From Croceibacterium mercuriale (GTDB lineage: Bacteria; Pseudomonadota; Alphaproteobacteria; Sphingomonadales; Sphingomonadaceae): DNA of 64,000 nucleotides. Shown piece by piece: positions 18,776 to 43,428 of this stretch (its first letter is position 1; every line of letters starts with the position of its first letter). The stretch is taken from contig NZ_JTDN01000002.1 in the NCBI RefSeq assembly GCF_000802385.1, forward strand, positions 992,001 through 1,056,000, given 5' to 3'. The position numbers and the translations under genes were made by a program. The notes beneath the pieces are model-generated. The model was not told where the DNA came from. It saw only the letters and a list, made by a program, of their open reading frames with translations, and did not search any database.

Positions 18776-18789
18776 TGGCGGAGACGGAG
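18776..18789 (+). other. Left attachment site (attL copy of tRNA-Ser 3' end)
   Basis: TGGCGGAGACGGAG is identical to 43415-43428, the 3' terminal 14 nt (reverse complement) of tRNA-Ser(GCU). The remainder of the 18646-18950 gap shows no gene. Confidence 0.75.
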
Positions 18790-18950
18790 TCCGCCGAACT
18801 CCTATCCAGGAGCGTCCGTCCGCAAGCGCGAGACAATGCGAAAACCGTCAATTTGCGTCGAACTTGCCGCTTATATGTTCGCCCGTGTTCGGTTGCGTTC
18901 CCATAAAACCGGGCTACTATCGGGGAACTGATAAGGGAACGGACCGGACT

Positions 18951-20198
18951 ATGCCTCGCAAGCTGCACAATGCTCTGACCTCGCTGGCTGTGAAGGGAGC
19001 AAAGCCGGGGCGTCATGCCGATGGTGGCGGGCTGCACCTGCTGGTGAAGGAGACGGGCGCCCGTTCCTGGGTCTATCGCTTCATGTTGAACGGCAAGGCT
19101 CGCGACGTTGGCCTTGGCTCAGCGGCAGGCGCTGGCGCCATGTCACTGGCCGATGCCCGGCTGGCAGCCACCGCTCTGCGACTGAAAGTAAAAGCTGGAA
19201 CCGATCCGCTTGCCGAGCGCAAACAGGCGGCTGCCGACGCGGCAGCGGCGGCGCAGGCTGCAATCGCGTCTAGCATGACGTTCCGCGATGCGGCGGAAAC
19301 CTACATCGGCGCGAACGAAGCGAGCTGGCGCAACCCCAAGCATCGGCAGCAATGGCGCAATACACTAGCCAGCTACGTCTATCCGGTGATTGGCGACCTC
19401 CCGGTTGCCACCATCGAAACCGCCAACGTGCTCGCGATTCTTGAGCCGATCTGGAAGGACAAGGCGGAGACTGCCAGCCGCGTGCGCGGGCGCATTGAAA
19501 CCGTGCTAGATAGCGCAAAGGCGCGCGGCTATCGGCAGGGGGAGAACCCCGCCCGCTGGCGCGGCCATCTGGCGCAAATCCTACCCGCCCGTTCGCGCCT
19601 GACGCGGGGGCACCACAAGGCGGTGCCCTATGGCGACTTGCCGGCGCTAGTGACGAACCTGCATGGGCGAAAGGCGACCGCCGCCCTGGCGCTGGAGTTC
19701 ACCATTCTGACCGCCTGCCGTTCGGGCGAGGTGATCGGCGCGAGCTGGACCGAGATAGACACCGATAAGGCAGTCTGGACGATCCCCGCCAGCCGCATGA
19801 AGGCGGGCAAGGAACATCGGGTGCCCTTATCGCCTCGCGCCTTGGCGATTCTAGAGGAGGCCAATGCGTTTGGCAGCAAATGGCTGTTCCCCGGCGCCAT
19901 AGGTGGCAACCTGTCCGGCATGGCAATGGCGATGCTGCTGCGCCGGATGAAGGTTGACGCCACCGTGCATGGCTTCCGATCGGCGTTCCGCGATTGGGCG
20001 GCGGAATGCACAGGGTACGCTCATGAGGTGGCGGAGATGGCTCTGGCCCATACTATCGGGGACAAGGTCGAACGGGCATATCGACGCGGCGACTTGTTCG
20101 GCAAGCGGCGGCGGATGATGGATGATTGGGCAAAATTCTGCATGAGTGGTAATACTGGTGGCGCCAGCGTGACACCATTGCGTGCATATCAGCTTTAG
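18951..20198 (+). CDS. P4-type tyrosine-recombinase integrase with DUF4102 arm-binding domain
   Basis: It catalyses site-specific integration and excision. The 415 residues start with a DUF4102-type N-terminal domain (SLAVKGAKPGRHADGGGLHL, then GARSWVYRF). A core-binding domain and a catalytic domain follow, with Arg in TACRSGEV, His-x-x-Arg in VHGFRSAFRDW, His in ALAHTIGDKVE and Tyr in RAYRRGD. The ATG at 18951 is 160 nt inside attL. The arm and core binding sites should lie in the adjacent 18790-18950 segment. Confidence 0.93.
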   Translation: MPRKLHNALTSLAVKGAKPGRHADGGGLHLLVKETGARSWVYRFMLNGKARDVGLGSAAGAGAMSLADARLAATALRLKVKAGTDPLAERKQAAADAAAAAQAAIASSMTFRDAAETYIGANEASWRNPKHRQQWRNTLASYVYPVIGDLPVATIETANVLAILEPIWKDKAETASRVRGRIETVLDSAKARGYRQGENPARWRGHLAQILPARSRLTRGHHKAVPYGDLPALVTNLHGRKATAALALEFTILTACRSGEVIGASWTEIDTDKAVWTIPASRMKAGKEHRVPLSPRALAILEEANAFGSKWLFPGAIGGNLSGMAMAMLLRRMKVDATVHGFRSAFRDWAAECTGYAHEVAEMALAHTIGDKVERAYRRGDLFGKRRRMMDDWAKFCMSGNTGGASVTPLRAYQL

Positions 20199-20233
20199 GT
20201 TCGAAACGAATAGCGGCCAACCAAGGGGGGAAA

Positions 20234-21160
20234 GTGCCAGCAATTGACCTTTACGAGGTGCTTGGCGTCTCGCCTCGATCGGACGATGTGGTCATACGCG
20301 CGGCGTACAAGGCCATGATGCTCAAGTACCATCCGGACACGAACTGTGCACCTGAGTCCGATACCCGAGCGAAGGCAATCAATGAAGCTTTCGCAATTCT
20401 GAGCAACCCGGCCGAACGCAGGAAGTACGACGCTTCTAGAGCCACTGCTAGCGATGTGCGAGCGTCGTCGCCACCCCCGCCACCGCCACCGCCACCGCCA
20501 CCGCCACCGCCACCTCCCCCACCTCCGGATTTCGCTTCCACGTTAAAATCCGGTCGTGAACCAAGTCGAAGAAGTAGCGGGTATGAGCCCGGAGGTAAGG
20601 CGGTAGGCTTCATGCTCTGTCTGGCGCTCATCGGAGCACTGATCGTCATTGCAAATGGAGGCGATCAAAGCTCACAGAGTACTGAAGAAGTTCCCTCCGA
20701 AGCCAAGGGACAAACCTCACTTGCACTAGCACCTTCACCAGTTCCCTCGCCGATAACTGGTGCAACAAACTCGATCCAACCCGTGCCTACAATGGGGGAG
20801 TTTGTTTCCAAGGTCGAAGCAGCGGTGGATGACTTCGCGACAATCCTAGCCAAGGACGGTATGTCGGGTGCGGAGGTCTATAGTCGAAACTGCGAGCAAG
20901 CCGCGCGGCAGTCAAATGATATACTGGATACGGATTACTGCATCGCTTTCGATATGGCGGCCATGGCGACCGATTTGGGCTTCGCTCAATCAACAGGGAT
21001 GCCCCAGAACATACATTTCAAAATGCGAGCGCAAATATTGGATTCCGATTACGCCCGCTTTGCAGAGGTAAGTTCCAATCGAACTGAGATAATCTGGACT
21101 CAGGTGAATACCGTCCTCGATACATCGATCCAAGCCGCTGCAAACCGTTCGGGATATTAG
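20234..21160 (+). CDS. J-domain membrane protein with poly-proline tract
   Basis: The N-terminal J domain (LYEVLGVSPRSDDVV, catalytic HPD at residues 33-35) should stimulate an Hsp70. It is followed by a run of 19 prolines (residues about 80-98), a single membrane helix near residue 130 (FMLCLALIGALIVIANG) and a Ser/Thr/Pro linker. The C-terminal domain of about 130 residues has two cysteines and is of unknown function. J domain inside and C-terminal domain outside the inner membrane is the expected topology. Start is GTG at 20234 after a purine-rich AAGGGGGGAAA. Composition is less GC-rich than the flanks. Confidence 0.8.
   Translation: MPAIDLYEVLGVSPRSDDVVIRAAYKAMMLKYHPDTNCAPESDTRAKAINEAFAILSNPAERRKYDASRATASDVRASSPPPPPPPPPPPPPPPPPPPDFASTLKSGREPSRRSSGYEPGGKAVGFMLCLALIGALIVIANGGDQSSQSTEEVPSEAKGQTSLALAPSPVPSPITGATNSIQPVPTMGEFVSKVEAAVDDFATILAKDGMSGAEVYSRNCEQAARQSNDILDTDYCIAFDMAAMATDLGFAQSTGMPQNIHFKMRAQILDSDYARFAEVSSNRTEIIWTQVNTVLDTSIQAAANRSGY
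20471..20526 (+). repeat. CCACCG hexanucleotide microsatellite encoding poly-Pro
   Basis: Repeated CCACCG units encode the 19-Pro tract of the J-domain protein. Such runs can expand or contract by slippage in multiples of three without frameshift. Confidence 0.85.
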
Positions 21161-21329
21161 TGCCGATTGTTCGAGACGCACAAACCTTTGTTGGGGATGG
21201 CTCGCCCCCTCCCACCTGACAGTACAAGTTTCCGCCAGTAGTCATTCTGGCGGGGATAGGCCGGCCAGCCGACAAGCGCGCATCCCACGCGCTTCCCCGC
21301 ACTTCCATGGGAACCGCTCGGGAGGCGGC

Positions 21330-21854
21330 ATGCAGGATCTTGGAACCCCGCTCAGCGAGGGCCCCGACGAGAGCGAATACTATGCTGTCGCGGAAATGCA
21401 TTATGGTCGCTTGGAATGGCTGGCTGAGCACATCCGACGCTCAGAAATGCAGATCGGTCGGATAGCATCAGAAAAGCTGTTGGCCTTGATAGAAGGTTCC
21501 GATCCAGACTGCTTGTTCAAGTTAGTAGCTGTTCGTAATCCTGCTTTACCCCCGGCCAAGACAGACGCGAGATTGCGCGCAATGCGCGACTTCGATCTTG
21601 CGATTGAGGTGGCGCGGAGAGGCGGCTTCCGACGTGGACAGCTAATGCACGCCTGCCATGAGGTGGGGCAAGCTACGACACCAAAAATCTCGTCAGATAC
21701 ACTCGCCAAGCGAGTTCGCCCGTTCCGCGATACAGCTAAGCAGGCTGTAGCCGAGGAAGCCGCCGCGGAAGCATATCGAAACGGACAAACGGATTATTTG
21801 GGCCGTCCAATTTTTCCAGAAAAGCACTTTGCCGGGGTAAGCGACGACCCTTAA
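21330..21854 (+). CDS. Hypothetical island protein
   Basis: The 174-residue soluble, charged product has no recognised domain. It is Arg/Glu/Ala-rich with predicted helices throughout (RLEWLAEHIRRSEMQIGR, RAMRDFDLAIEVARRGG). GGGAGG lies just upstream of the ATG. It precedes the AlpA-like regulator in the same direction and is probably part of the island's early operon. Confidence 0.65.
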   Translation: MQDLGTPLSEGPDESEYYAVAEMHYGRLEWLAEHIRRSEMQIGRIASEKLLALIEGSDPDCLFKLVAVRNPALPPAKTDARLRAMRDFDLAIEVARRGGFRRGQLMHACHEVGQATTPKISSDTLAKRVRPFRDTAKQAVAEEAAAEAYRNGQTDYLGRPIFPEKHFAGVSDDP

Positions 21855-21909
21855 TTCAGCTCTCCACGTGTCCCACCGATCCCGAGCGGACATGTTGGAG
21901 AATTTTGAT

Positions 21910-22098
21910 ATGACCATTGCAAAGTCGCCGGTTCACAAGATCGGGTACTCCATCGCCGAAGCGTGCCATGCCACCAGTTTGGGCCGCACTACCATCTATG
22001 AGGCGCTGAAGAGCGGTCGCCTGCGTGCCACGCGCGTGGGAGGGCGAACGATCATCCCGGCCGAGAGCCTGCATGCGCTTGTTGCTGGGGAGGCATAG
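21910..22098 (+). CDS. AlpA/excisionase-type helix-turn-helix protein
   Basis: The 62-residue protein contains a MerR/excisionase-like winged helix: YSIAEACHATSLGRTTIYEA followed by a wing (RATRVGGRTIIPAESLHALV). Such proteins act as recombination directionality factors or as activators of integrase in P4-like elements. GGAG lies 9 nt before the ATG at 21910, favouring this start over in-frame ATGs at 21868 and 21892. Confidence 0.77.
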   Translation: MTIAKSPVHKIGYSIAEACHATSLGRTTIYEALKSGRLRATRVGGRTIIPAESLHALVAGEA

Positions 22099-22101: not shown

Positions 22102-22290
22102 ATGCCTGGAAAAAGCGAAGCCCGCGCGGATGAGGCGCGGGCATCGCGGAATAGCTGTGGCGGCTGGTTCCGAGATGCTTCTAACCTCACGATCATCCAA
22201 TCGCAATTCCTGATCGCGGCACACCACATCCGGCCGGAGATGGCTGTGATGCTGGGGGCGGTTATCCTCGGGGGAGGCGCGCATGGCTAG
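22102..22290 (+). CDS. Small hypothetical island protein
   Basis: The 62-residue ORF begins 3 nt after the AlpA-like stop and overlaps the next gene's start by 8 nt. Tight packing is the main reason to believe it. It has a mildly hydrophobic C-terminal half (MAVMLGAVILGGG). No family is recognised. Confidence 0.45.
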   Translation: MPGKSEARADEARASRNSCGGWFRDASNLTIIQSQFLIAAHHIRPEMAVMLGAVILGGGAHG

Positions 22291-22594
22291 CCGCTACCCC
22301 AGCATGCCGGGTGCCAAGGGGAATGACGGCACCAGTCAGGATGCGGCCGTCGCAATTGCGCCTATGGTGCCCCGGCTGCACCGCATTGCTCTGCACACGC
22401 TGGCCCGGCTGGGAGAGGCAACTCCGCTGGAGGCGATCGCCAGCGCCGGCATTGACCGCGAAGCCCTGCAACCTCGGTTCAGCGAATTGCGGACGCTGGG
22501 CTTGGTGGAGGCGACCGGCGTGCGGCGCCGCAATCCGTCCGGCAAGTACGCAGCTGTTCGGCGCCTGACTGACAAGGGGAGGGCCGTGTTGTGA
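22283..22594 (+). CDS. Winged-helix domain protein
   Basis: The 103-residue protein has a helix-turn-helix plus wing: HTLARLGEATPLEAIASAG, REALQPRFSELRTLGLVEAT, RRLTDKGRAVL. This is typical of small phage DNA-binding proteins located before the primase. Its TGA overlaps the GTG of the next gene (GTGA). Confidence 0.65.
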   Translation: MASRYPSMPGAKGNDGTSQDAAVAIAPMVPRLHRIALHTLARLGEATPLEAIASAGIDREALQPRFSELRTLGLVEATGVRRRNPSGKYAAVRRLTDKGRAVL

Positions 22595-23526
22595 TCGACC
22601 CGAGGGCAATCGTCCGCCGCTACGGTGGCTATGTCTGTAAGGGCAATGCGCTGATCCCCACGCCCGGCCACTCGGCTCGAGACCGAGGAACCGCGATCAA
22701 GCCCGATATGCTGGCACCCGATGGCGTGCTGGTGACGTGCTACAATGGCGGCAGGGCCGACGCGTTGGCGGTGAAGGCCATGTTGCGCCGGGACGGCTAT
22801 CTTGCAGCTAGTGACAGGCCGACGCGCGAACTGACGCCGGTCGAGCGAGCAGCGATCCGGCGCGAGGAGGAAGACCGGCAGCGGCAGCGGGAAGCAACGG
22901 AACAGGCGGCGGCACAGGAAGCGGCCGAACTGTGGGCGGCTTCCAGCCGTGCCGATTTCCGTCATGGTTATTTGCAGGCCAAGCGACTGGAGCCGTTCGG
23001 CGTTCGGCAGATGGCCCGTGAACTGCTGGTGCCGATGATGGATGCTGCATTCCGCATCTGGAACGTGCAACGCATTCAGCACGATGGCTTTAAGCTGTTT
23101 GGCCGGAACGCCCGGACTAAGGGCCTGTTTTGGCCTCACGGCGCGCATCAGCCGGACGGTGCGCCATCGGCTGGCCCGCTGGTGATCGGGGAAGGCTACG
23201 CCACTATGGCAGCTATCCACATGGAAACGGGGCACGGCGTCATCGCGGCTCTGTCTGCGAACAATCTGCTGGTCGTGGCGCGCACCATGCGCCGCCTGTT
23301 CCCCACGCGAAAGATTGTCATCGCGGCGGATGATGACGGGCACCTTGCCGAGAACCTCGGCATGGAGGCAGCAGAGAAGGCGGCTCGGGCAGTTAGCGGC
23401 CGGCTGGCTGTTCCGGTTCCAGTGAGGTTGAAAGGGGACACGCAGGCCCGCTCCATCGACTTCGCTGACGTTCCCCGCCACCGGGTCGCAGCGCAGATCG
23501 CGGCTGCCTTGGTCGGGAGGCCTTAA
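22591..23526 (+). CDS. Toprim-domain primase-like protein
   Basis: The 311-residue protein carries a Toprim domain in its C-terminal half. VIGEGYATMAAIH supplies the catalytic Glu and IVIAADDDGH the DxD-type metal site. The N-terminal part lacks an obvious zinc finger. A charged helix rich in Glu, Arg and Gln lies at residues 85-120. Such proteins start DNA replication of phages and P4-like elements. Coupling to the winged-helix gene upstream and to the ATPase gene 1 nt downstream marks a replication operon. Confidence 0.77.
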   Translation: MIDPRAIVRRYGGYVCKGNALIPTPGHSARDRGTAIKPDMLAPDGVLVTCYNGGRADALAVKAMLRRDGYLAASDRPTRELTPVERAAIRREEEDRQRQREATEQAAAQEAAELWAASSRADFRHGYLQAKRLEPFGVRQMARELLVPMMDAAFRIWNVQRIQHDGFKLFGRNARTKGLFWPHGAHQPDGAPSAGPLVIGEGYATMAAIHMETGHGVIAALSANNLLVVARTMRRLFPTRKIVIAADDDGHLAENLGMEAAEKAARAVSGRLAVPVPVRLKGDTQARSIDFADVPRHRVAAQIAAALVGRP

Positions 23527-23527
23527 G

Positions 23528-24814
23528 ATGGCCGTTCCGATTGGCGCTCTTGATCTGGCCGAAGTCGAGCCGCAAGAAGCGGCGTTGCGCATCCGGAGCT
23601 ATGCTGACCTGCGGGCGACACCATACCGCTGGCCAGTTCCCGCATCCCTGCCCACTCGGCAGTGGCTCTTGGGGCATTGGCTGCTGCGAGGCGAGGTGAC
23701 CGCGATCATCGCGCCGCCTGGCGTAGGCAAGAGCACGATCGGCACAGCGATGGCACTCTGCCTTGCAAGTGGCCAGCCGCTCCTGGGCAAGCCGGTGCAC
23801 CGCGGGCAGCAAGGCGTGTGGATCTTCAACCTGGAGGACGGCACGGACGAACTCGAACGCCAGCTCTCGGCCTCAATCCTCTTCCATGATGTCGGGCTCG
23901 ACGACTGTGGCGATCGGCTGCACCTGGACAGCGGCCTCGTTCAACCGCTGGTCACGGCTACGGAAGACCGCGACGGCTTCATGCTGGCGGAAGACGTGTT
24001 CGCCCAGCTCGCCCGCACGATCGAGGAACGGAACATATCGACGGTGATCGTCGACCCGTTCGTCTCTAGCCATGCCGTGCGAGAGAACAGCAACGAAGCG
24101 ATCGATGCCATTGTCAAGCGATGGAAGCGGTTGGCGCAGGAAACGGGCTGCGCGGTCGTGCTGGTGCACCACACCAAGAAGCTGGGCGGCCGGGAGGCCA
24201 CGGCAGAGGATGGGCGCGGTGCGTCGGCCCTGCAAGGTGCTGCGCGCGTCGTTCTGCCGCTCAACATGATGAGCGAGAAGGAGGCGGAGGAACTGGGCAT
24301 CAGTGACCCGCTGCTGCGCCGCTCACTAGTGCGGATTGATGACGGGAAGGTGAGCCGGGCGCCAGCCGGCGGCGCGACGTGGATCAAGCTGGAGGGGCAA
24401 AGCCTGGGCAACGGGGCAAAAGGCGAGCAGCCCGACCATGTTGGCGTCGCTAGCCTGTGGCAGAAGCCCGACGTCTTCCACGGCCTCAGCCCCTGGCACC
24501 TCTACACCGTGCAGCAGCGGCTGGGTGAAGGCGAGTGGCGCGAGAACGTCCAGGCGAAGAACTGGGTCGGTCACCTCGTCGCCAGGGTCGCCGGCCTCTC
24601 TGCCGAGAACGACAAGGCCAGGATCAAGGCGCTGATCCGCACATGGAAGAAGACCGGCGCCCTTGCAGTCGAGCACCGAGCCGACAAGAACGGGGATGAT
24701 CGGCCGTTCGTTGTTGTTGGGACGCCAGTGAACCCCAGCGAGATCGGCAGCCGTCCGCACTCTGCAAGGTGCGGTGCGGACGGTGCGGAAGGTGCGGGCG
24801 GTGACCCCCTGTGA
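23528..24814 (+). CDS. RecA-fold (AAA_25/RepA-like) replication ATPase
   Basis: The 428-residue protein has Walker A APPGVGKST near residue 62, Walker B TVIVDPF and a sensor-like VVLVHHTKK, the pattern of RepA/AAA_25 hexameric helicases. The C-terminal part has a helix-rich region that may bind DNA. Together with the Toprim protein it should form the island's replication module. The last ~20 codons overlap GGTGCGG repeats that continue into the noncoding region, as is common where a replication gene abuts its origin. Confidence 0.77.
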   Translation: MAVPIGALDLAEVEPQEAALRIRSYADLRATPYRWPVPASLPTRQWLLGHWLLRGEVTAIIAPPGVGKSTIGTAMALCLASGQPLLGKPVHRGQQGVWIFNLEDGTDELERQLSASILFHDVGLDDCGDRLHLDSGLVQPLVTATEDRDGFMLAEDVFAQLARTIEERNISTVIVDPFVSSHAVRENSNEAIDAIVKRWKRLAQETGCAVVLVHHTKKLGGREATAEDGRGASALQGAARVVLPLNMMSEKEAEELGISDPLLRRSLVRIDDGKVSRAPAGGATWIKLEGQSLGNGAKGEQPDHVGVASLWQKPDVFHGLSPWHLYTVQQRLGEGEWRENVQAKNWVGHLVARVAGLSAENDKARIKALIRTWKKTGALAVEHRADKNGDDRPFVVVGTPVNPSEIGSRPHSARCGADGAEGAGGDPL

Positions 24815-24906
24815 ACCCCATCCGCACTACCCGCACCTTCCTATAGGAAGGGCGGGTATGGTGCGGGTGCGGGTGAAGGCCGATGGGGGCTGAAAACAAG
24901 GTGCGG
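24755..24906 (+). repeat. GGTGCGG iteron-like cluster, candidate replication origin
   Basis: Direct copies of GGTGCGG lie at 24768, 24773, 24782, 24791, 24860, 24866 and 24900; inverted CCGCAC copies are at 24755, 24822 and 24831. The cluster starts inside the ATPase 3' end and continues downstream. The 24907-25391 stretch has no gene that I can support; it has a short direct repeat AAATACGGG twice near 24967-24990. Confidence 0.5.
24822..24867. repeat. Long imperfect palindrome centred on TTCCTATAGGAA
   Basis: Arms CCGCAC, ACCCGC and CCTTCC are mirrored by GGAAGG, GCGGGT and GTGCGG around TATA at 24842-24845, with single-base bulges. It may be a cruciform origin element or a terminator for the replication operon; no T run follows. 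Confidence 0.55.
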
Positions 24907-25391
24907 GTGAAGCAAGCCTGCAGGTTTGAAAAACAATCAGGCGATATCGAAGCGGGCCGCTGGTGCCCGCAAAATACGGGCGAAATACGGGATCCTCGGC
25001 GGCGGACCTCGCCAGTAAAGTAGAGGGCGTTTAGAGGGGCGGGGGGATGCCCAGCTTGCCGCCATTATATCGCGCGTACGCGAGGGCCGGTTTATAGCGG
25101 GCAATGGCGGTGGCCCGGTGCCTGATTATACAGGCAGGAAACAGGCTCGGTGGCTGTTCCCCTCCTGTCTAAAGTAGACTCGAATAGACGAGCGTCTGAG
25201 GGCTGCGGGGGCCGCGGCTGGTGTCTCGCCCGGGCCGAGTAAAAAAGGCCCATTTAGGTGGATGGCGGGCGGTTAAACAAACGGCAGGAAACGGGTGGGC
25301 ATGCATCACCTGCGTCAGCGGCAAAGCGGTAAGCTCCAGCGGGTCGCAGCCACAGGTAGCGAATCACGTTTTGTTCCGCTTACAGGGGTAC

Positions 25392-25846: not shown

Positions 25847-25927
25847 CGCGTGTTGCTGGCGCGGCCCAGCTGCGCGAGGCGGTGAGCTCTCGGGAGTGTC
25901 CTTTCGCACTCCGTAAGGAGAGTGCGG

Positions 25928-26377
25928 ATGAGCCACATGGAAGTCATCACACGGGTCGAACGTCGGCGGCGGTACTCGGACGAGGAGCGCGAGGCGGTGC
26001 TGGCCCAGTGCGATGCGCCGGGTGCCACGATTGTCGGCGTCTCGCGCCGGCTCGGCATCTCGGCCAGCCTCATTCATGGCTGGCGCAAGACGAGGCGCGA
26101 GGCGCAGCGCATTGCCAGCGAGCCGTTGCAGTTCATCCCATATGGCGTGGTGACGCACGCCGCATCGACCGAGCCGGACATGACATCAGCGCAGGCGACA
26201 CCGGCCAAGCCGTCGTCACCTGCCGCGCTGCCGGAGGACTTGATCCGCCCGCACCCGGGTGCGCGACCCGGCGGCATCGATATCGACCTGGCAAGCGGCG
26301 TTCGCCTGTCGGTCGACAGCTACGTCAATGAGAAGGCACTTGCCCGAGTGCTGCGGGCGCTGAGGGATGTCGCATGA
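25928..26377 (+). CDS. tnpA: IS66 accessory protein TnpA
   Basis: The 149-residue protein has a helix-turn-helix (RRYSDEEREAVLAQC, GVSRRLGISASLIHGWRK) typical of IS66 OrfA, and a C-terminal domain ending LARVLRALRDVA. It overlaps tnpB by 4 nt. Confidence 0.86.
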   Translation: MSHMEVITRVERRRRYSDEEREAVLAQCDAPGATIVGVSRRLGISASLIHGWRKTRREAQRIASEPLQFIPYGVVTHAASTEPDMTSAQATPAKPSSPAALPEDLIRPHPGARPGGIDIDLASGVRLSVDSYVNEKALARVLRALRDVA

Positions 26378-26727
26378 TTGCGCTGGCGCCGGGCACCAAG
26401 GTGTATCTCGCTTGCAAGCCGGTGAGCATGCAGAAGGGCTTCGACGGGCTTACCGCATTGGCTCAACAGGTTCTTGAGGCTGACCCGTATTCGGGTCACC
26501 TGTTCCTGTTCCGGGGCAAGCGCGGCGACTATCTGAAGGCGCTCTACTGGGATGGCTCGGGCATGTGCCTGTTCGCCAAGCGTCTGGAGCAGGGCCGGTT
26601 TGTGTGGCCACCGCTGGTCGACGGCGGCATCGTGCTCAGCCCTGCGCAGCTCGCACTACTGATCGAAGGCATTGACTGGCGGCGCACTGTAGCGCCGGCT
26701 CCGACGACCGCGCCAACGCTCATATAA
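26374..26727 (+). CDS. tnpB: IS66 accessory protein TnpB
   Basis: The 117-residue protein shows the invariant family run KPVSMQKGFDGL, then FLFRGKRGDYLKALYWDG and RFVWPP. It is required with TnpA and TnpC for IS66 transposition; its biochemical role is unclear. It is unrelated to the IS605 TnpB nuclease. Confidence 0.92.
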   Translation: MIALAPGTKVYLACKPVSMQKGFDGLTALAQQVLEADPYSGHLFLFRGKRGDYLKALYWDGSGMCLFAKRLEQGRFVWPPLVDGGIVLSPAQLALLIEGIDWRRTVAPAPTTAPTLI

Positions 26728-26784
26728 ATGGCGCTTTTCCGTCCTTTTTGCTTGGCCTGAGTCGCGCCGGTGGTAGGATGAGCC

Positions 26785-32268: not shown

Positions 32269-32871
32269 CTATCGGCTGACCCAACGATCGGCGGTTGAGC
32301 GAATCGTCATCTCGCCAGCGTACGGCACGCACAGCCCCAGCGCTTCCGCCGGCGTGCCACCCGTCCAGCGATCCCAATCAGCCGGCGCCAAGATGACCGG
32401 CATTCGATCGTGCACGCCCTCCACATGGATGCAGGCTTCCGTCATCACCATGCTGTAGGCTGGACCCCAATCGTCCGTGTTGCGCCAGATCCCGGCCACC
32501 GCGAAGGTCGGCTGGTCGGGCAGCGCGAACCAGGTGCGCGTCATGGCGCCTTTCTCGCCCTCAGCTTCGGCAAACTCTGTCACCGGGATCAGGCATCGGC
32601 GCTCCTGGAAGCTGTAGCGCCACATGAAGCTGTCGAGCTTGTCGGTGCGGGCATTGTTCACCGGGCGGGGCTTCAGCGGCTGGCCTGTCTTCTTGCTCGT
32701 CTGCGCCAGCGGAAAGCCCCAGGCCATGCTGCGCAGCTCGCCAGCTGCCACGACCAGGCCGGGATAGCCCGGGTAGACCTCGGCCGCGGCGTTGGCGAGC
32801 TGTGCGGTGCCAGCGTGGAACAGCCGGGCGGCTTCGGCGTGCGCGGTGTTCATGCGGTAGAGATTGCACAT
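32269..32871 (-). CDS. SRAP-domain protein (YedK/HMCES family)
   Basis: SRAP proteins form a thiazolidine crosslink with abasic sites in single-stranded DNA. The 200-residue protein has the catalytic Cys2 directly after Met, the Asn of VNNARTDK, the Glu of PVTEFAEAEG and the His of VEGVHDRMPVIL. All four key positions are present. It has no neighbour in its operon. Presence on an island may reflect protection of replicating element DNA; chromosomal SOS-linked copies are also common. Confidence 0.92.
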   Translation of the reverse strand: MCNLYRMNTAHAEAARLFHAGTAQLANAAAEVYPGYPGLVVAAGELRSMAWGFPLAQTSKKTGQPLKPRPVNNARTDKLDSFMWRYSFQERRCLIPVTEFAEAEGEKGAMTRTWFALPDQPTFAVAGIWRNTDDWGPAYSMVMTEACIHVEGVHDRMPVILAPADWDRWTGGTPAEALGLCVPYAGEMTIRSTADRWVSR

Positions 32872-35033: not shown

Positions 35034-35507
35034 TCACGGATCCTGAGGGAAGAGCATAACCTCAAGCTCCCAAGCAAGATGGTTCAGGTTGCCGAGCACC
35101 TCATCAACGTCGGCAGGCAGGGGGAAATCGTCCATGCCGCTATACCGAAAGTGATGTTCTCTGTGCGGTTGCCGAAGCAGTTCGACGATCTTCCGCAACT
35201 GCGGGGCACTTGAGCAGAAACCGAGCCTCTCGGCACTGGTCAGCGCTGCTTCGAGGTCGTGGCCTATGTCTCGAAGCTCCTTCGGATCGCTACCATGAGC
35301 GATGCAAGCTGTCTTAAGCAGGATCTCGAGGCTGTAACCTATCAGAAGGAAGATCGATGGCGAGTACCTCCCATTTGTGACGGCGATCTCTGGGTTCTCA
35401 GCCCCGCTCACTTCAGCCCACTCTTGTGCGCGGCGAGCGACCGCAGCCGCCGCCAAAGCATGGCTCGCACCCATGTGCCAGAGGTCGCGCGCATAATCTT
35501 CGTTCAT
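35034..35507 (-). CDS. HEPN-like helical protein
   Basis: The 157-residue all-helical protein has YSPSIFLLIGYSLEILLKTA followed by GHDLEAALTSAE. This is the pattern of HEPN-superfamily proteins, where a conserved helix LEILLKA is followed some 15-20 residues later by HDL. HEPN proteins are often RNases or toxin components, but the canonical R-x4-6-H motif is not clearly present. A small membrane protein gene lies 12 nt upstream in the same direction. Confidence 0.55.
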   Translation of the reverse strand: MNEDYARDLWHMGASHALAAAAVARRAQEWAEVSGAENPEIAVTNGRYSPSIFLLIGYSLEILLKTACIAHGSDPKELRDIGHDLEAALTSAERLGFCSSAPQLRKIVELLRQPHREHHFRYSGMDDFPLPADVDEVLGNLNHLAWELEVMLFPQDP

Positions 35508-35747: not shown

Positions 35748-35967
35748 TTGCGGTCCTCGCGATGTGAGACTCGGCACCAAGATAGCGTTCTTCCTGGCTC
35801 CGCTCATCCCTCGTATCCGGCGATGCTGGCGCGGGTGCCAGCCGGGTATTCCATAGCGCGCGGCGGTTCAAGGGCGCCAAGCGCGCGGTAAATAATCCGT
35901 CATCCCGACTCGACTCCCCGGCTAAGCCGAATAGGTTCAGGCGTAACAAACGATTAGGACTGTGTGG

Positions 35968-36942
35968 ATGGTTGGCGGCGCAAAGGAAATCACCCCAAAC
36001 GCGAGTAGTATCAGTGTCTTAGCTGCCAAATCGACTCAGATGGAAATCACTCCCTCGCAAGGTGCCCTGCCGCTAGGGATCGAAAAGCGAGGCGATTTCG
36101 GCGAGATCGGAATGGGCGTGTTGTCAGATGGCACACCATATTTGAGCCAAAGAGGGTTGGCCGTCCTCTGCGGCGTCGAAAACGCGCATATCGGCACAAT
36201 AAGCTCGCAATGGGCAGAGAGCCCGGCGAAGCCGCGGGTGTCGAAGATCAAGAGCATTCTGGAGCAGGCTGGCTTCAAGGCATCAGCAGCGCACGTTGAG
36301 ATCAGGCACGGCGGCACCGTGCACTACTGCTACCCGGCCGAAGTTTGCCTGTCCGTGTTGGAGTATTATGCATTCGACGCTGGCGCCAACGTGCAAGAGC
36401 AGGCGCGCGCAAACTTCCGAATGCTTGCCGGATCAAAGCTCCGGGACATGATCTATCGACAGGTAGGCTACGACCCGACCGGGCAGAACCGCTTCACGAA
36501 GTGGCATGATCGTATCTCCCTCAATCACCAGAGCGCGCCTAAGGGCTACTTCCATGTGTTCAATGAGGCTCATACGATCATCTATGAGCTGATCCTCGCC
36601 GGCGCTGAGATCGGTGAAAAGACGGTCGTTGACATTTCGATCGGTCAGCACTGGGGACGATGCTGGGAGGATCACGGACTCGAACGGCAGTTCGGGGCGA
36701 GACGCAAGTACCCGCACCGCTATCCTGACGATCACCCGCAAGCGCGGTCGAATCCGCAAGAGTCTTGGTGCTACCCTCTTGCAGCATTGGGTCACTACCG
36801 TGAGTGGCTGCAGGATCAGTACATCGAAGGCGGCAAGTTCAGCGGCTACCTAGATGGCAAGGTGAAGAAAGGACATTTGGCACCGTCCGTTGCTCAGCTC
36901 GCTATCGCTACGATCGCCCCAACGCAGCTGCCGGCGGCATAG
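35968..36942 (+). CDS. Possible BstA-like abortive-infection protein
   Basis: The 324-residue soluble protein has an N-terminal half with PYLSQRGLAVLCGVENAHIG (KilA-N/Bro-like DNA-binding look). Its C-terminal half is of the type DRISLNHQSAPKGYFHVFNE, VDISIGQHWGRCWE, YPHRYPDDHPQARSNPQESW and IEGGKFSGYLDGKVKKG. From memory the C-terminal pattern matches BstA-like prophage proteins that block phage replication; this was not searched. Start ATG 35968 with AGGA upstream; GTG 35962 is possible. It stands alone, with a hairpin just downstream. Confidence 0.62.
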   Translation: MVGGAKEITPNASSISVLAAKSTQMEITPSQGALPLGIEKRGDFGEIGMGVLSDGTPYLSQRGLAVLCGVENAHIGTISSQWAESPAKPRVSKIKSILEQAGFKASAAHVEIRHGGTVHYCYPAEVCLSVLEYYAFDAGANVQEQARANFRMLAGSKLRDMIYRQVGYDPTGQNRFTKWHDRISLNHQSAPKGYFHVFNEAHTIIYELILAGAEIGEKTVVDISIGQHWGRCWEDHGLERQFGARRKYPHRYPDDHPQARSNPQESWCYPLAALGHYREWLQDQYIEGGKFSGYLDGKVKKGHLAPSVAQLAIATIAPTQLPAA

Positions 36943-37423: not shown

Positions 37424-37664
37424 CTCAGCGTGAAGCCCGCGCCCGCGCCCGCAGCGTCAGCAAGCAGCTGTCCCGCTGGCTCCCACCTACAGCAAGGTCT
37501 ATCCGCACAAAGCTCTGAGCTATCGAACGCCCACGAGAACATCCGCCAATCCCACGAGCCCGCTTCGGGCAGGTAGGAGCAACAACAAAACGTGAGTTCT
37601 AAGGCGATATGAGGTAATGCTGCCGTCCGCCTGCCGCCCTTTTACCGGAAGCGTATCCGCGATC

Positions 37665-38201
37665 ATGGCCCATCTGACCGAGTACCAGAAACTAAAGATA
37701 GTTCAGGCTTTGGCGAGCTTTCAACCGCCTACTGACATCATCGAGCAGTTCCGGTCAGACTATGGCATCGAGCTTACTCACAAGCAGGTGGGCCGATACG
37801 ACCCGACCCGTTCCTACTACGAAGGCGGCGATAAATGGCGGCAGGTATTTCAAGCTTGCCGCGTGAAATGCTTTGAGAACGTATCGGCTATCCCTGTTGC
37901 TCACAAAGCCTATCGGCTCAACGTACTTCAAGAGGGCGTTGATGCGGCGAAGCAGGCACGTAACTGGCCGCTAGTGATCCAACTTTTGAAGCAGGCAGCC
38001 AAGGAAGTGGGAACTGTCCTGACGAATAATGAGAGCGTTCGCGCGGACGATACCGCCAAGAGGCGGGACCACGATACGACGCCAGAGGAACGTCGCGCGA
38101 CCATCAACGATCTCATGCGGCAAGCAGTGGAGGGACTTCAAGACAAGGCGGCAGCCGGCACCGAGCACGGGCAATATGAAACCCGGCAACAATTACCATG
38201 A
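37665..38201 (+). CDS. DUF2280 protein, terminase small-subunit-like
   Basis: The 178-residue protein begins with the DUF2280 pattern (HLTEYQKLKIVQALASFQPP, then IEQFRSDYGIELTHKQVGRY), a helix-turn-helix that in phages recognises packaging sites. A helical middle and a charged tail follow. No large terminase, portal or capsid gene accompanies it, which fits a satellite that redirects a helper's packaging or a decayed prophage. ATG 37665 is preferred over 37617, which would add a basic extension. Confidence 0.77.
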   Translation: MAHLTEYQKLKIVQALASFQPPTDIIEQFRSDYGIELTHKQVGRYDPTRSYYEGGDKWRQVFQACRVKCFENVSAIPVAHKAYRLNVLQEGVDAAKQARNWPLVIQLLKQAAKEVGTVLTNNESVRADDTAKRRDHDTTPEERRATINDLMRQAVEGLQDKAAAGTEHGQYETRQQLP

Positions 38202-39048: not shown

Positions 39049-42000
39049 TCACCGCTCGATCCCGAGGTCGGACGACGTGAACGCGTCGACGATGCATTCC
39101 TGATAGAGTTCGTCCAGGGTCGTGCCGATCGCTAGCAGTGCGGCGATCCGCTGGATCATGGACCGGAACCACCGTCGATCGGAGTCAGACAAGGGGCGAT
39201 CATTCCTACGGCTGGCCTGGCGATAGCCGAGCCATTTCTTCAACACTGGGTAGCCGCCGAGCTGGTAGCTCCACACGGCCTCGGGCACGTTCGCGAAAAA
39301 GGCTTCGTCGTTGATGTACAGATCACCGGTCATCTCTCCCCAGAGGCCGGCGATTGTGGCCGAGGGGGTTTCACCGATGGTAGGCGCTCGGGGTGTCCAT
39401 CTGCCCTTGCCCCCGCCCCAATAGGTGATCGTGACCTTGAGGTCGGTCGGTCGAACCTGACTTCCATCTGCACGTTTCAAAGGGCCCAGTGCCCGTGTCG
39501 TCTCGATCCCCAATATCTCCTCGACAAGCGCGGTGACGTCGACGCTGGTATCCAGCAGTCTCGTCACCTTGTCGCCAGCCTCGACAACGCAGTCGAACAG
39601 TTTGGCTTTGCGCGGAATGGGCACGTGCGCCCAATCCGACGCAAGTGCGCTCTTGTGTTCCGCCTGATACGCAGGCGCATAGAGCATCGCGAAGACCACG
39701 CGGAACAGCTTTCCAACGAGGTCGCGCGCGGCTTGGTCACGTCGTCTTCCGGTCAGACCGAATGCGGCAGAGATTGACCGCCAGACGTGTTCCGCGATGT
39801 TCGCGTCACGATCGCCCAAGAGATCGTCGCTGGTCGTCTCGCGCGGGAAGACAACTGATCCGCGTTCATGCACGTGCAGATTGGCCAAGATGGTGGAGAA
39901 CACCGGCCTCGTCTCGGTCTCCTTGCGAGGCTCGGGGACGGTAAGCAGAAACTCGTTCGCCGCCAAGTTCATCCCGAACTCGGGTCGGGATCGATTGAGC
40001 AGCTTCGTTCCGGTGTCGTAATAGATGCTTCGCGTATCCAGAGGGAAGGTGAGAAACGGCTTCACCTTCCTCTCATCGAATCCTGCGGCGTGCAGCGCGG
40101 TCCAGATGGTCTCGGGTTCGTATCCCGATATGGCGGGCTTGCCGTCCACGTCCTCGGGTGCGAGCAACGGATTTATCTTGGCAGCGGCGGCGAATGTGGG
40201 GGCTTCGATGTATTCCCTCATCCGCGTCTTGAGGGTGGTGGCCTCGCCATCGACCACGGTGCCCTCGACGCCGCGATTGTGGTTCACGCCCTGGAAGGTA
40301 ACCGGGAACAGCTCGTCGAGGGCGGGCCATGCCTCGTATCCACCCTCAAGCACGCGGGGCGCCAGGCGCCAGCGGGTCTCACGCGTCGGGTGCACCGCTT
40401 CGTATGGCGGCGCGGGCGTCTCGCTGAGCCCCACTCCGATAGCCGCCAGGAGCTCGCCCCGCTTCCGCGCGGCAGCGCCCCAGAAGTCGCGATACTGCAC
40501 GTCCGTAGTGCTGGTGCTGGATCGATGCCCGACGAGCTTCAGCCAAGTGGCAACGGCTGTGCCCGGCTGAATGCCCCTAGGATCCGCGGCCGTCGAAAAG
40601 ACGCTGTCGTCACGTGTCCCCGCTCCAGGCACGCCGCTGGGGATGATCTTGCCGGTGCGATACTTGTCGCCGTTCAGGTTGTCGATCCACACGCGGTCGA
40701 AGCTGCCAAGCATAGAGTGCCGCATGAGCGGGTGCGATCGACCGGTGAGGAACGAGGAGTTGGATATGAAGGAGACGATCCCGTAGTCGGCGGAGCCCCC
40801 GATACGCTCTTCGGCCATCCGCACGAAACGGATGTAGAGATCGTCAAGCAACTGCTTTCGGACACCGTATTCCCGGTAGAGCAGGCTGTCTCCGCGTTGC
40901 TTCATCTTCGGACAACCAAAAGCGTCGATTTTGATCTCGCCCTTCTTGTTCTTGTCCGGCACCAGCTCGATGCCCTTGTAATGCGCGACGAGCTCGGCCT
41001 CTTCCGCCTGTGCTGCACCTGTGAAGCGGTCATACGGCGGATTGCCAATCACGACGATGATGCGAGCATCGCGCTTCACACGCTGCGACGCATCGAACTC
41101 GTCACGCATTTCAGGGAAGTTCAGCTTGACGTTGCCCTCGTCACGCCAGCCCGAGAGGGCGTTTGTCAGGAACACGGCGAGCCGGCGATCCTCAGCCGGG
41201 CGGGCTCCGAGCTGGTCTAGTAGGAGATAAAGCTGCAGCTGTGCGATGGCGAATGGCGCCGTCAGGATCTCAAAGCCGATCACTCGCTGCTCGAAGGCCT
41301 TTGCCAGCTCTAGGCCGATGGTGTCCTCGTCCCCTTCGGCGCGAAGTTGATCCGCGATGCACCGGGCGACCTCGAGCAGATAGGCTCCCGTGCCGCAGCA
41401 CGGGTCGAGGACGACCACTTCGGGATCGGCGAGGCCGCGCGCACGCCCGAGGTCAGTCTTGAGCAACTGGTGGACACGCCGCACTTGGTAGCGGACGATC
41501 TCCGGTGGCGTGTACCACACGCCTAGTTCGTCCCGGAGTTTGGGATCGAAGGCCTCAAGGAACGGCTCGTAGAAGTAGGTGATAGCGGCGAGCGCGTCGC
41601 CGTCGTCGTCGATGGTAGGAAACACCATGCGCGACCGAAAATGATCGCGGTCGATACGCCCGAAGGTCGTAATGGCTCTCTGTAGATGACCTTCGAGGCC
41701 TAGGTGACGCATACGCGTTGGATGACGGATGTCGTGGAGCAGCGACGCCAGGAACGCGATTGGCAGGTTCGCCTCGGCCGCCGCAATGTCGAACGTGGCG
41801 TCCGCTTCCGCTTCGCGATCCCACAGCACCCACGCGGCGAACAGCGAATAGAAGATTGCCTGGACAAGCGAGGACCTGAAAAAGCGTGCGCCCTTCTCAT
41901 CGTCGATGTCGAACGCCAGGCCGAGCGCCTGCCTGTAGTCGTCAAGGAGAGGCCGGATAGGCTGCAGGTTATGGGGAATAGCGTCCTTCGCGTCGCGGGC

Positions 42001-42591
42001 CTGTCGCGCAAGAATCTTCGCGAGGTCGGCGGGCGCAGCGATCGCCGCGTGGTCCGTTACGGCGACGGTGATAATGTCCACCAGCCGCTCGACGTCGGCC
42101 TCGTTGACGGGCGCCCTGCCGCGTGGGGAAGCGGACCAGAGATCCACCTGCTTCTCCAGGCTGCGCTGCGTCGGCGGGACGGGGACCGCCGGGTCGCGAT
42201 GGTAACCGATCTTGCAGGTTAACAGGCCGAACCCGCGGACATTGCTGATCAGCACGACGCCGGTCTGCGCGAGGTATCGGCCGATCTGATCGTTCTGTTC
42301 GGTGGACGCGGCCAGATCTTCAAGCGTTACGTTTGGCTTCTTGACCTCGCCGTAGACGCCGACGAAGAGCGTCGAATCGCCTAGGATGAAGTCGGGCATG
42401 TCACGCCCCGCCTGCCTCGCTTCCGACGTTCCGGTCCGAACGTCGAACGGCAACCTCTCGCCCCGAAGCAGTGCCGCCAGAAGCACCTTGATGTCGGGAT
42501 AGTAAGTGGTCTCTGTGGTCGTCGGCAACGACTCCAGCTTGCGCGTGTCGTCGCAATAGGCCGCGATTGCCGTTATCAACTCGGGCTTCAC
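39049..42591 (-). CDS. Single-chain restriction-modification enzyme (type IIG/ISP-like, Eco57I-type methylase)
   Basis: The 1180-residue protein probably both cuts and methylates DNA. A PD-ExK-like nuclease signature is visible at Asp67 with Glu82-Val-Lys84 (GEVKKP). An N6-adenine methyltransferase follows with motif I LDPCCGTGAY at residues 395-404 and catalytic NPPY at 517-520. The C-terminal half, including WGEMTGDLYINDEAFFANVP, resembles the type ISP target-recognition domain. There is no SF2 helicase domain, unlike true type ISP enzymes, so IIG/IIL behaviour is likely. The GTG start overlaps the DUF6471 stop by 4 nt. Confidence 0.9.
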   Translation of the reverse strand: MKPELITAIAAYCDDTRKLESLPTTTETTYYPDIKVLLAALLRGERLPFDVRTGTSEARQAGRDMPDFILGDSTLFVGVYGEVKKPNVTLEDLAASTEQNDQIGRYLAQTGVVLISNVRGFGLLTCKIGYHRDPAVPVPPTQRSLEKQVDLWSASPRGRAPVNEADVERLVDIITVAVTDHAAIAAPADLAKILARQARDAKDAIPHNLQPIRPLLDDYRQALGLAFDIDDEKGARFFRSSLVQAIFYSLFAAWVLWDREAEADATFDIAAAEANLPIAFLASLLHDIRHPTRMRHLGLEGHLQRAITTFGRIDRDHFRSRMVFPTIDDDGDALAAITYFYEPFLEAFDPKLRDELGVWYTPPEIVRYQVRRVHQLLKTDLGRARGLADPEVVVLDPCCGTGAYLLEVARCIADQLRAEGDEDTIGLELAKAFEQRVIGFEILTAPFAIAQLQLYLLLDQLGARPAEDRRLAVFLTNALSGWRDEGNVKLNFPEMRDEFDASQRVKRDARIIVVIGNPPYDRFTGAAQAEEAELVAHYKGIELVPDKNKKGEIKIDAFGCPKMKQRGDSLLYREYGVRKQLLDDLYIRFVRMAEERIGGSADYGIVSFISNSSFLTGRSHPLMRHSMLGSFDRVWIDNLNGDKYRTGKIIPSGVPGAGTRDDSVFSTAADPRGIQPGTAVATWLKLVGHRSSTSTTDVQYRDFWGAAARKRGELLAAIGVGLSETPAPPYEAVHPTRETRWRLAPRVLEGGYEAWPALDELFPVTFQGVNHNRGVEGTVVDGEATTLKTRMREYIEAPTFAAAAKINPLLAPEDVDGKPAISGYEPETIWTALHAAGFDERKVKPFLTFPLDTRSIYYDTGTKLLNRSRPEFGMNLAANEFLLTVPEPRKETETRPVFSTILANLHVHERGSVVFPRETTSDDLLGDRDANIAEHVWRSISAAFGLTGRRRDQAARDLVGKLFRVVFAMLYAPAYQAEHKSALASDWAHVPIPRKAKLFDCVVEAGDKVTRLLDTSVDVTALVEEILGIETTRALGPLKRADGSQVRPTDLKVTITYWGGGKGRWTPRAPTIGETPSATIAGLWGEMTGDLYINDEAFFANVPEAVWSYQLGGYPVLKKWLGYRQASRRNDRPLSDSDRRWFRSMIQRIAALLAIGTTLDELYQECIVDAFTSSDLGIER

Positions 42592-42899
42592 GGCCGCTTC
42601 CCCTTTGCACGCACCTGGGCGCCGTGCTCACCGCCGATACCGGTGCGGATCTGTTCTGCCGTCGGGATTTGCAGGCGGTCGACTCCGATCGCGACCATGC
42701 ACTGGGCGAAGAAGGAGGCGCCGAAGCGCCCGCGTGCGACCTTGTTGCGCAGGTTTGGGACGTTCTCGATGATCCCTAGAGCGGCCAGCCTCGCGACGAG
42801 CTGCTCGTAGGAGATGCCGCGCAGCATCATTTCGGCGCGAAGGATGTTCTTCACCAGCTGCTCCCACGCCGCCTCGTCTATCCGACCGACATTTTCCAT
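42588..42899 (-). CDS. DUF6471 protein, first gene of the RM operon
   Basis: The 103-residue protein has a helix-turn-helix-like core (GISYEQLVARLAALGI, NLRNKVARGRFGASFFAQCM) of the DUF6471 family. It overlaps the RM gene by GTGA, so it is co-translated with it. A role as a transcriptional controller of the RM system, analogous to C proteins, is an inference from fold and position. Confidence 0.75.
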   Translation of the reverse strand: MENVGRIDEAAWEQLVKNILRAEMMLRGISYEQLVARLAALGIIENVPNLRNKVARGRFGASFFAQCMVAIGVDRLQIPTAEQIRTGIGGEHGAQVRAKGKRP

Positions 42900-42944
42900 C
42901 TTGCCGTTCTAGGATCGTGAAGGCTGCTTGCGCAAGCTCGCATG

Positions 42945-42974
42945 ATTATGCGTGTCACCGTTTATGATGTGTAA
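42945..42974 (-). promoter_or_regulatory. Candidate promoter of the DUF6471-RM operon
   Basis: On the minus strand, TTACAC and CATAAT are separated by 18 bp, about 45 nt upstream of the start. A CGCATGATTATGCG palindrome overlaps the -10 region and could be an operator. Confidence 0.38.
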
Positions 42975-43036
42975 GCCTGGGGCGCACCTAAATCATAATC
43001 GTAGATGCTGGTTCTCGTCATCCTTAAAAGTGGTTC

Positions 43037-43393
43037 TTGGCGGAAAACGGTCTCATCTCTGCCGACTATCGGGATCTACCGATTCCGAGAATCGCGCGCA
43101 TGAACGAGGCGTCTGCCCAGCCACTGACGCGAATGCGACCCGCTGGCGGATCGCGCCGGCGAGGACTTAGAGCAGACCTATCCCGCATCCTCTACACGTT
43201 GTCGAAGCGCACCGACGTTGTCGGCACACTGTTCCTGACGGCCAAAAACAACATCGGCGATCCGGCCAAGCTCCAGCGGCTGGGAACGCTCATCGGAGCC
43301 GAGACGTGGCTCTGCCCTGCAACCTTTGCCTCAGCCCAGCAACTGCCTTATCGGGGAGCCATGATGGGAACAGATCCTCAAGTTGGTAGATAA
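43037..43393 (+). CDS. Doubtful ORF next to the right island end
   Basis: The 118-residue ORF includes a plausible segment, LSRILYTLSKRTDVVGTLFLT, but its first 45 residues are basic and repetitive and no ribosome binding site is seen. It may be a gene fragment trapped between the RM promoter and attR. Otherwise 42975-43414 shows nothing. Confidence 0.28.
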   Translation: MAENGLISADYRDLPIPRIARMNEASAQPLTRMRPAGGSRRRGLRADLSRILYTLSKRTDVVGTLFLTAKNNIGDPAKLQRLGTLIGAETWLCPATFASAQQLPYRGAMMGTDPQVGR

Positions 43394-43414
43394 AGCCTGA
43401 AAATCAATGCCAAC

Positions 43415-43428
43415 TGGCGGAGACGGAG
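43415..43428 (+). other. Right attachment site within tRNA-Ser 3' end
   Basis: This is the 14-bp copy identical to 18776-18789; it contains the encoded CCA end and acceptor stem of tRNA-Ser(GCU), the integration target. Confidence 0.78.

Follow-up and report, generated by a model that had tools for sequence, protein, structure and literature searches.

P4-like phage satellites carry Psu, Delta and Sid proteins together with one large primase-helicase, and capsid-forming phage-inducible chromosomal islands (cf-PICIs) have capsid, portal and terminase genes of their own. PICIs in general use attachment sites that are not known to serve prophages, and depend on a helper phage for their induction, packaging and interference. 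The phage-inducible chromosomal islands (PICIs) of Gram-negative bacteria, such as EcCICFT073, are described in the sections of PMC6092414 drawn on here as elements of typically 12-15 kb with an integrase, an AlpA regulator and a primase or initiator gene, immediately 3' of which lies a replication origin of two iteron sets flanking an AT-rich region; their core is transcribed rightward, they carry accessory genes and sometimes a terminase small subunit gene (terS), and they have no structural genes. In Vibrionaceae, phage-inducible chromosomal minimalist islands (PICMIs) are reduced to int, alpA and a DUF3987/DUF5906 primase, are integrated at fis, carry defence genes as accessory cargo and have no capsid-remodelling genes, according to the portion of PMC10803314 used. 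A further precedent is the BstA-aba system of phage BTP1, in which the 63-bp aba element spans the start of bstA and requires its terminal direct repeats for function; the part of PMC8585504 consulted leaves open what decides the sensitivity of a phage to BstA. The locus described here is a 24,653-bp island at a tRNA-Ser(GCU) gene of Croceibacterium mercuriale, lying within a 64,000-nucleotide stretch of contig NZ_JTDN01000002.1 (the window). Judged by its sequence, the island quite probably belongs to a group of PICI-type phage satellites found in Sphingomonadales, because it is bounded by attachment (att) repeats, its helicase belongs to a single clade, no structural gene was matched in 12 of 12 relatives, and it encodes a DUF2280 protein without a matched large terminase.

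The ends of the island are set by an exact 14-bp repeat: TGGCGGAGACGGAG forms the 3' end of a tRNA-Ser gene called by ARAGORN on the minus strand (anticodon gct, positions 43415-43505), and an exact second copy begins at position 18776, 88 bp before the integrase open reading frame (ORF), giving an element of 18776-43428. The ends proposed in an earlier note on this DNA coincide with this repeat to the base, and an integrase with att sites is a feature shared with PICIs. Comparison with same-genus genomes found no empty site on the left, the left-flank stretches of the window lying elsewhere in genomes G001 and G002, and the tRNA-Ser gene and right flank were syntenic in G002 and partly so in G001. 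As the left-flank comparison failed, the claim of insertion is based on the att repeats and the relatives rather than on an empty site.

Thirty chosen ORFs of the island were compared with Pfam, 20 of these with PHROGs, and ten each with PADLOC and NCBIfam (Table 1). The core, all of it rightward, consists of the integrase, a DnaJ-domain protein, an ORF without a match, an HTH_17/excisionase protein, two small ORFs, a Toprim_3 primase and an AAA_25 helicase. There follow an ORF without a family, three IS66 genes, a glyoxalase, an IS110 transposase, DUF4760 and SRAP proteins and small ORFs, and then, at the right end, BstA, the DUF2280 protein, a type IIG/ISP-like restriction enzyme and a DUF6471 protein. 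Pfam bore out the integrase, AlpA-like regulator, Toprim primase-like protein, ATPase and DUF2280 protein of the earlier note, the regulator matching both HTH_17 and excisionase models as an AlpA-type protein of the kind found in PICIs. The product of 22283-22594, there called a winged helix, had no Pfam match and was recognised only by PHROG 1123, a family of unknown function; the DnaJ gene, the three IS66 genes, the glyoxalase, the IS110 transposase and the naming of one defence gene as bstA are additions to that note. No structural (capsid, portal, tail), lysis, relaxase or type IV secretion family scored above the Pfam cut-off in the 30 ORFs, and no structural family was found by PHROGs in its 20, in agreement with the absence of capsid, tail and portal genes stated in the earlier note and with the PICI pattern of no structural or lysis genes (assessed by BLAST in the relatives).

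A scan of one genome per species (84,980 species) with a helicase alignment returned 219 relatives, and the 80 best were retained. Twelve of them (loci L121 to L132) encode helicases 63-77% identical to that of the island, the next best among the best 80 of the 219 being 51% identical. These loci belong to Novosphingobium (three), Erythrobacter (two), Sphingomonas (two), Qipengyuania, Aurantiacibacter, Sphingobium, an uncultured Sphingomonadales bacterium and an unplaced Pseudomonadota bacterium, 11 of the 12 being sphingomonads by title. Together with the window they form one group with a support of 100 in the Shimodaira-Hasegawa-like approximate likelihood ratio test (SH-aLRT), in a quickly built tree that took in 120 of 160 collected helicases and from which three of the four fused viral copies were left out. 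In close genomes the helicase is scarce, with weak matches only, in three of 58 apart from the own genome. The integrase was matched in 11 of the 12 relatives, all but the 5-kb contig L124, and was 74-80% identical to that of the island in six, five of which are delimited at tRNA-Ser; AlpA and Toprim were each matched in 11, all but L131. The order int-AlpA-Toprim-ATPase-DUF2280, which the earlier note had suggested seeking in other sphingomonads, was found in Novosphingobium aerophilum, Novosphingobium sp. MD-1 and an uncultured Erythrobacter.

Direct repeats at tRNA 3' ends delimit L121 (7.4 kb), L122 (8.8 kb), L123 (7.1 kb), L127 (9.0 kb), L129 (8.5 kb), L130 (6.3 kb) and L131 (9.7 kb), and the elements of L126 (15.6 kb, extended stretch L241) and L128 (13.9 kb, extended stretch L242) are likewise bounded by repeats. 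In total, ten of the 13 elements including the window are delimited, the nine relatives spanning 6.3-15.6 kb; the search for att repeats of at least 12 bp was negative in L125 and L132, and L124 is undelimited. Five delimited relatives with a 74-76% identical integrase have 14-16 bp att sequences at tRNA-Ser, and four with a 35-37% identical integrase have 18-20 bp att sequences at tRNA-Gln. In L127, the other strand encodes a second integrase-family ORF (2941-4095) immediately beyond the left att site, which suggests another element inserted alongside. Reference terminase large subunit, portal, capsid and tape-measure proteins had no match in any of the 12 relatives by BLAST, used here rather than full hidden Markov model scans, and a smaller reference set had no structural match in the extended stretches L241 and L242. 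Relatives with a full set of structural genes, which the earlier note had named as counting against a satellite, were therefore not seen among the 12 closest, and since the nine delimited relatives have no structural match, structural genes do not appear to have been lost in this island alone.

Directly 3' of the helicase gene, all 13 elements have direct GTG(C/G/A)GG repeats, accompanied by inverted copies in 11, and in each element the number of iterons exceeded that of all 200 mononucleotide shuffles. Between the iterons lies a palindrome whose sequence varies by element while its pairing is kept (CCTTCCT/AGGAAGG in the window, CTCTC/GAGAG in L121 and L132, CTCCCT/AGGGAG in L125 and L126, CACCCCCTT/AAGGGGGTG in L123). 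Except in L122, the palindrome provides the longest perfect stem of each element (12 of 13); taken alone, the longest stem gave p values of 0.005 to 0.52 against mononucleotide shuffles, at or below 0.05 in only three of 13. Folded as DNA, the window hairpin has an energy of -21 kcal/mol (z -6.7), and those of the other four of the five elements folded have z scores of -5.5, -2.9, -3.6 and -5.6. A reading of the hairpin as a terminator was rejected, there being no T-run after it by eye. In its layout, a primase or initiator gene followed by two iteron sets flanking an AT-rich core, the region resembles the origin of PICIs, and it is taken as the putative replication origin.

The DUF2280 protein would correspond, by family and by phage gene context, to the terS homologue that some PICIs carry: in five of six phage records (JBD44, ZF40, Gungnir39, BUCTT20 and Magia) DUF2280 lies directly upstream of an annotated terminase, the neighbours in the sixth, XM1, being unnamed. 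It is present in four of the 13 elements (the window, L125, L126 and L128), in which no large terminase was matched. Across 296 sampled Sphingomonadales genomes it was found in six, the own genome included, and in none of 14 control genomes; with the references used, no large terminase was matched beside it in any of the six, the copy of G665 lying at a contig edge. Integrase and AlpA homologues are near DUF2280 in four of the six: the loci of the own genome and of G602 (taken as the L128 genome from the agreement of contig number and position) are members of this family, and in G567 and G561 the integrase homologue adjoins a tRNA-Ser gene, with an AlpA homologue and no helicase match. Neither integrase nor AlpA was matched in the stretches taken around DUF2280 in G685 and G665. 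Scans of viral contigs with a single DUF2280 protein and with a single AAA_25 protein returned no relative. Two sphingomonad loci, L315 (847-8942) and L316 (8408-12144), have an integrase homologue beside tRNA-Ser, AlpA and DUF2280 with no Toprim or AAA_25 match, and are possibly a second satellite type with the same small terminase subunit, or remnants.

The island therefore shares with the PICIs of PMC6092414, as presented in the sections used, the integrase, AlpA, a primase with an iteron-bearing origin immediately 3' of it, rightward core transcription, accessory genes, a terS-like gene in some members and the lack of structural genes. It differs from them in having Toprim and AAA_25 as separate genes, att sites at tRNA-Ser or tRNA-Gln, DUF2280 in some members, sizes of 6.3-24.7 kb, and a host in the Alphaproteobacteria, a word that is absent from the main text of that source. 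With PICMIs it has in common the minimal int-alpA-primase make-up, defence genes as accessory cargo and no capsid-remodelling genes, and that identity was ruled out by the Toprim_3 primase and the integration at tRNA-Ser. Related AAA_25 helicases of Rhodoplanes plasmid 1 and Rhizobium phage RHph_X2_26 are 40% and 36% identical, respectively, and in both, unlike in the island, they are part of one long gene of primase-helicase size; Rhodoplanes plasmid 1 also has head and tail genes. The earlier note had offered a P4-like or PICI-type satellite in preference to a plasmid or an integrative and conjugative element. The PICI-type alternative agrees with the sequence features other than size, and the preference over a plasmid or conjugative element is supported, the conjugative element being rejected with no relaxase or type IV secretion Pfam family found in the 30 ORFs; the P4-like alternative was rejected, as there was no P4 signature family among the Pfam and PHROG matches and primase and helicase are separate genes. 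A cf-PICI was likewise rejected, with no capsid, portal or terminase family of its own in the island by Pfam and PHROGs. If the reading is true, PICI-type satellites include a distinct Sphingomonadales lineage that has a recognisable origin, uses att sites of two types and carries defence genes as cargo. A literature search found no description of satellites in Sphingomonadales or their class, and as it missed a large satellite survey, the novelty of the lineage is qualified accordingly.

Several observations weigh against a PICI-type satellite. At 24.7 kb, the island exceeds both the 12-15 kb of described PICIs and the 6.3-15.6 kb of its delimited relatives, and L131 lacks matched AlpA and Toprim genes. 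Nine of the 13 elements lack a matched DUF2280 gene: in L132 its place after the iterons is taken by a DUF5681 gene, presumably of another terminase-linked family, and in L121, L122, L124, L127 and L129 by one family (family 5). The latter had no Pfam match above the cut-off and, for the two copies tested, no PHROG match save one at E 0.026; its L129 copy had no match in a phage collection, a viral-contig scan with the family alignment returned none, and its structure model was uninformative, being too poor for a structure search. The DUF2280 protein of the window is 28-32% identical to the L125, L126 and L128 copies as against 32-37% to two phage copies, is closer (46-47%) to those of G567 and G665, and is encoded at a distance of 13 kb from the iterons; a separate acquisition is possible. 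Its structure model is poor (pLDDT 51.5), and a PDB sequence search gave weak, chance-like matches only. The sole DUF2280 gene of the host genome is that of the island, and no resident helper with that small subunit is visible; the helper search found one portal match (PF04860, G000:C2:312287-313252).

The large size, the two insertion sequences and the lack of a DUF2280-bearing helper in the host genome would suit a satellite that is now dead and that the host retains as a defence island, a possibility that concerns the present state, is compatible with a satellite origin and is plausible, though its probability is put somewhat below even. Against this, the two att copies match exactly, the reading frames for integrase, AlpA, primase and helicase are all open, and the island has its iteron region. 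On the satellite reading, the island has grown to 24.7 kb through cargo and the IS66 and IS110 insertions, and its mobility is perhaps poor now. An integrative element other than a phage satellite, small and self-replicating, whose spread would be passive (through general transduction, natural uptake, gene transfer agents or mobilisation in trans), is unlikely. The nine elements without a matched DUF2280 would fit such an element, as would the non-integrated Methylobacterium pVL1_6 (which also has a tape-measure gene) and a Microvirga repABC plasmid, both carrying the same separate Toprim and AAA_25 pair, but DUF2280 without a matched large terminase in the remaining four elements, an origin layout and gene order as in PICIs, and the absence of relaxase and type IV secretion families argue for a satellite. 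That the island is a decayed prophage or capsid-forming satellite, whose head genes were lost and replaced by IS66, IS110 and cargo right after the origin, is very improbable: viral contigs L041, L061 and L062 have head and packaging genes after AAA_25, the L041 integrase is 53% identical and insertion sequences lie just downstream of the iterons, but nine delimited close relatives have no matched structural gene and L041 falls outside the 13-member helicase group. The three viral contigs, of 9-18 kb, are possibly capsid-forming satellites in Alphaproteobacteria; in L041 and L061 the Toprim gene is separate from AAA_25.

As a PICI-type satellite, the island would respond to a helper phage that induces AlpA, upon which integrase and AlpA would excise a circle that the primase and helicase replicate from the iteron region. 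The DUF2280 protein would then recruit the terminase large subunit of the helper, directing island DNA into helper capsids. The host would be defended by BstA, which would stop competing phages from replicating their DNA, and by the restriction enzyme, which would cut unmodified DNA.

The BstA of the island, the protein component of the BstA-aba system, is 39.6% identical to that of BTP1, has no NCBIfam match, and shares up to 80% identity with copies from IMG/VR contigs, with a terminase large subunit gene nearby in six of ten such loci. What is new here is that bstA is overlapped by an aba-like 63-bp DNA motif under codon-level constraint. In 12 aligned BstA coding sequences, using columns with no more than two absent, 140 columns have an invariant residue, M and W excluded. 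The codon is also invariant in five of six such columns at residues 8-32, as against one of 131 beyond residue 40 (Fisher 9.6e-8, for related rows including two identical proteins, with ranges picked after alignment and three columns at 33-40 in neither class). The constrained codon positions spell the 63-bp motif bounded by GAAATC. As with aba, a 63-bp element lies at the start of bstA and has terminal direct repeats, 57 bp apart here and 56 in BTP1, the repeat being GGAAATC here and CCCGCC in BTP1 aba (PMC8585504, in the part consulted). In contrast to BTP1, the element lies in an N-terminal part outside the BTP1-type profile, its carrier is an island without structural genes, and phage contigs in which bstA was not detected also contain the motif.

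An exact motif scan of viral contigs returned 31 stretches, 12 with a G+C fraction below 0.5 and 19 at 0.5 or above, compared with eight for a mirrored control pattern of the same composition, all below 0.5. Ten of the 19 GC-rich stretches carry bstA, including L260 and the incompletely covered L267. The other nine, with eight distinct motifs (L244, L246, L248, L249, L254, L258/L269, L263 and L265), have no BstA in the whole record, a check in which two bstA-bearing control records did match, although the records may be fragments. Bases not asked for by the pattern are shared by the eight bstA-less motifs, namely A after the first GAAATC (8/8, and 8/10 in the bstA set), G before the second (8/8 and 10/10) and a central CA (8/8 and 8/10), and these motifs sit in or beside differing genes. 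By eye, what looks like the 3' end of a tRNA immediately precedes the motif in L254, where an integrase-like ORF lies 0.3 kb upstream, and the motif of L249 lies inside an ORF resembling a replication initiator. A looser pattern, scanned without a mirrored control, gave 39 stretches, of which 21 were new: two with bstA, 12 AT-rich, and seven GC-rich with no BstA detected in the retrieved stretches that were checked (L276/L295, L278, L282, L286, L287 and L292).

The motif thus looks like a DNA element that often, though not always, accompanies bstA. By analogy, the element of the island probably works like BTP1 aba, sparing the island's own replicating DNA, and in phages without bstA the orphan motif is possibly an immunity element or a BstA target site. 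A more tentative proposal, judged rather doubtful, joins these: a satellite with BstA and its own immunity tag would stop the replication of helpers or rivals while copying itself, and the bstA-less GC-rich phages sharing the tag would have borrowed immunity or carry a recognition site for BstA. Immunity or target alike, the tag is findable by sequence and offers a handle on phage sensitivity to BstA, a question made directly testable by a sequence signature of the BstA-linked element, with and without bstA.

Family matches firmly identify two defence units: one is BstA, the other the type IIG/ISP enzyme together with the neighbouring DUF6471 protein. The earlier note had counted at least four; the DUF4760, SRAP and HEPN-like (E 0.09) proteins were not shown to be defence genes, and the HEPN-like ORF had no PDB sequence match up to E 1. 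Defence cargo also occurs in the relatives, with Abi_2 inside L122 and a type I HsdM inside the L126/L241 element.

Table 1. Features of the island, with positions in the window
Feature	Position	Strand	Basis
attL core TGGCGGAGACGGAG	18776..18789	n/a	exact 14-bp repeat; 14-16 bp att type also in L121, L122, L123, L127, L129
Tyrosine integrase (arm-binding, central, catalytic domains)	18864..20198	+	Pfam PF00589, PF22022, PF13356
DnaJ-domain protein, cargo between int and alpA	20234..21160	+	PF00226 4e-18
ORF between int and alpA	21330..21854	+	no Pfam or PHROG match
AlpA-like excisionase/activator (HTH_17)	21868..22098	+	PF12728 1.4e-9; NCBIfam TIGR01764 excisionase 3e-10
Conserved small ORF	22102..22290	+	matched in ten of L121-L132, not L131/L132
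Small protein, possibly winged helix, adjoining primase	22283..22594	+	PHROG 1123 8e-12
Toprim primase	22591..23526	+	PF13362 (Toprim_3) 3e-11; PHROG 2249 DNA primase 1e-46
AAA_25 (RepA/DnaB-like) helicase	23528..24814	+	PF13481 5e-44; 63-77% identical in L121-L132
Candidate origin: GTGCGG iterons, inverted CCGCAC copies, hairpin around CCTTCCTATAGGAAGG	24760..24912	n/a	shuffles, DNA folding
IS66 element, three transposition genes (gene span)	25922..28419	+	PF01527, PF05717, PF03050
IS110-family transposase	29142..30173	+	PF02371, PF01548
DUF4760 protein, cargo	31292..32092	-	PF15956 7e-21
SRAP-domain protein, cargo	32269..32871	-	PF02586 6e-26
Possible HEPN-type protein (weak)	35034..35507	-	PF05168 E 0.094, sub-threshold
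BstA, abortive-infection replication inhibitor	35962..36942	+	PADLOC 8e-116; PHROG 6287 1e-79
Candidate aba-like 63-bp DNA element GAAATC-N27-TTA-N6-AAA-N12-GAAATC	35986..36048	+	codon constraint and motif scans
DUF2280 protein, likely terminase small subunit	37617..38201	+	PF10045 3e-23
Type IIG/ISP-like single-chain restriction-modification enzyme	39049..42591	-	PF18135 (Type_ISP_C), PF02384; PADLOC REase_MTase_IIG 2e-70
DUF6471 protein, 4-bp overlap with restriction enzyme	42588..42899	-	PF20075 3e-27
attR core in tRNA-Ser(GCU) 3' end	43415..43428	n/a	exact repeat and tRNA call

Among the smaller features, the protein adjoining the primase (22283..22594) is 67-78% identical in ten of the 12 relatives, with no match in L131 and L132. 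Between the iterons and the right side of the element, a tRNA gene lies near DUF2280 in three relatives (Gly in L125, 11448-11521, and L126, 11460-11531; Arg in L128, 11912-11988). SRAP homologues lie within 10 kb of a related helicase in four of the 80 loci (L134, L135, L137 and L138). The glyoxalase gene between IS66 and IS110 (28574-29023) matches a Sphingomonas sp. Leaf9 gene (L138) at 95% identity across the aligned portion, probably indicative of recent transfer.

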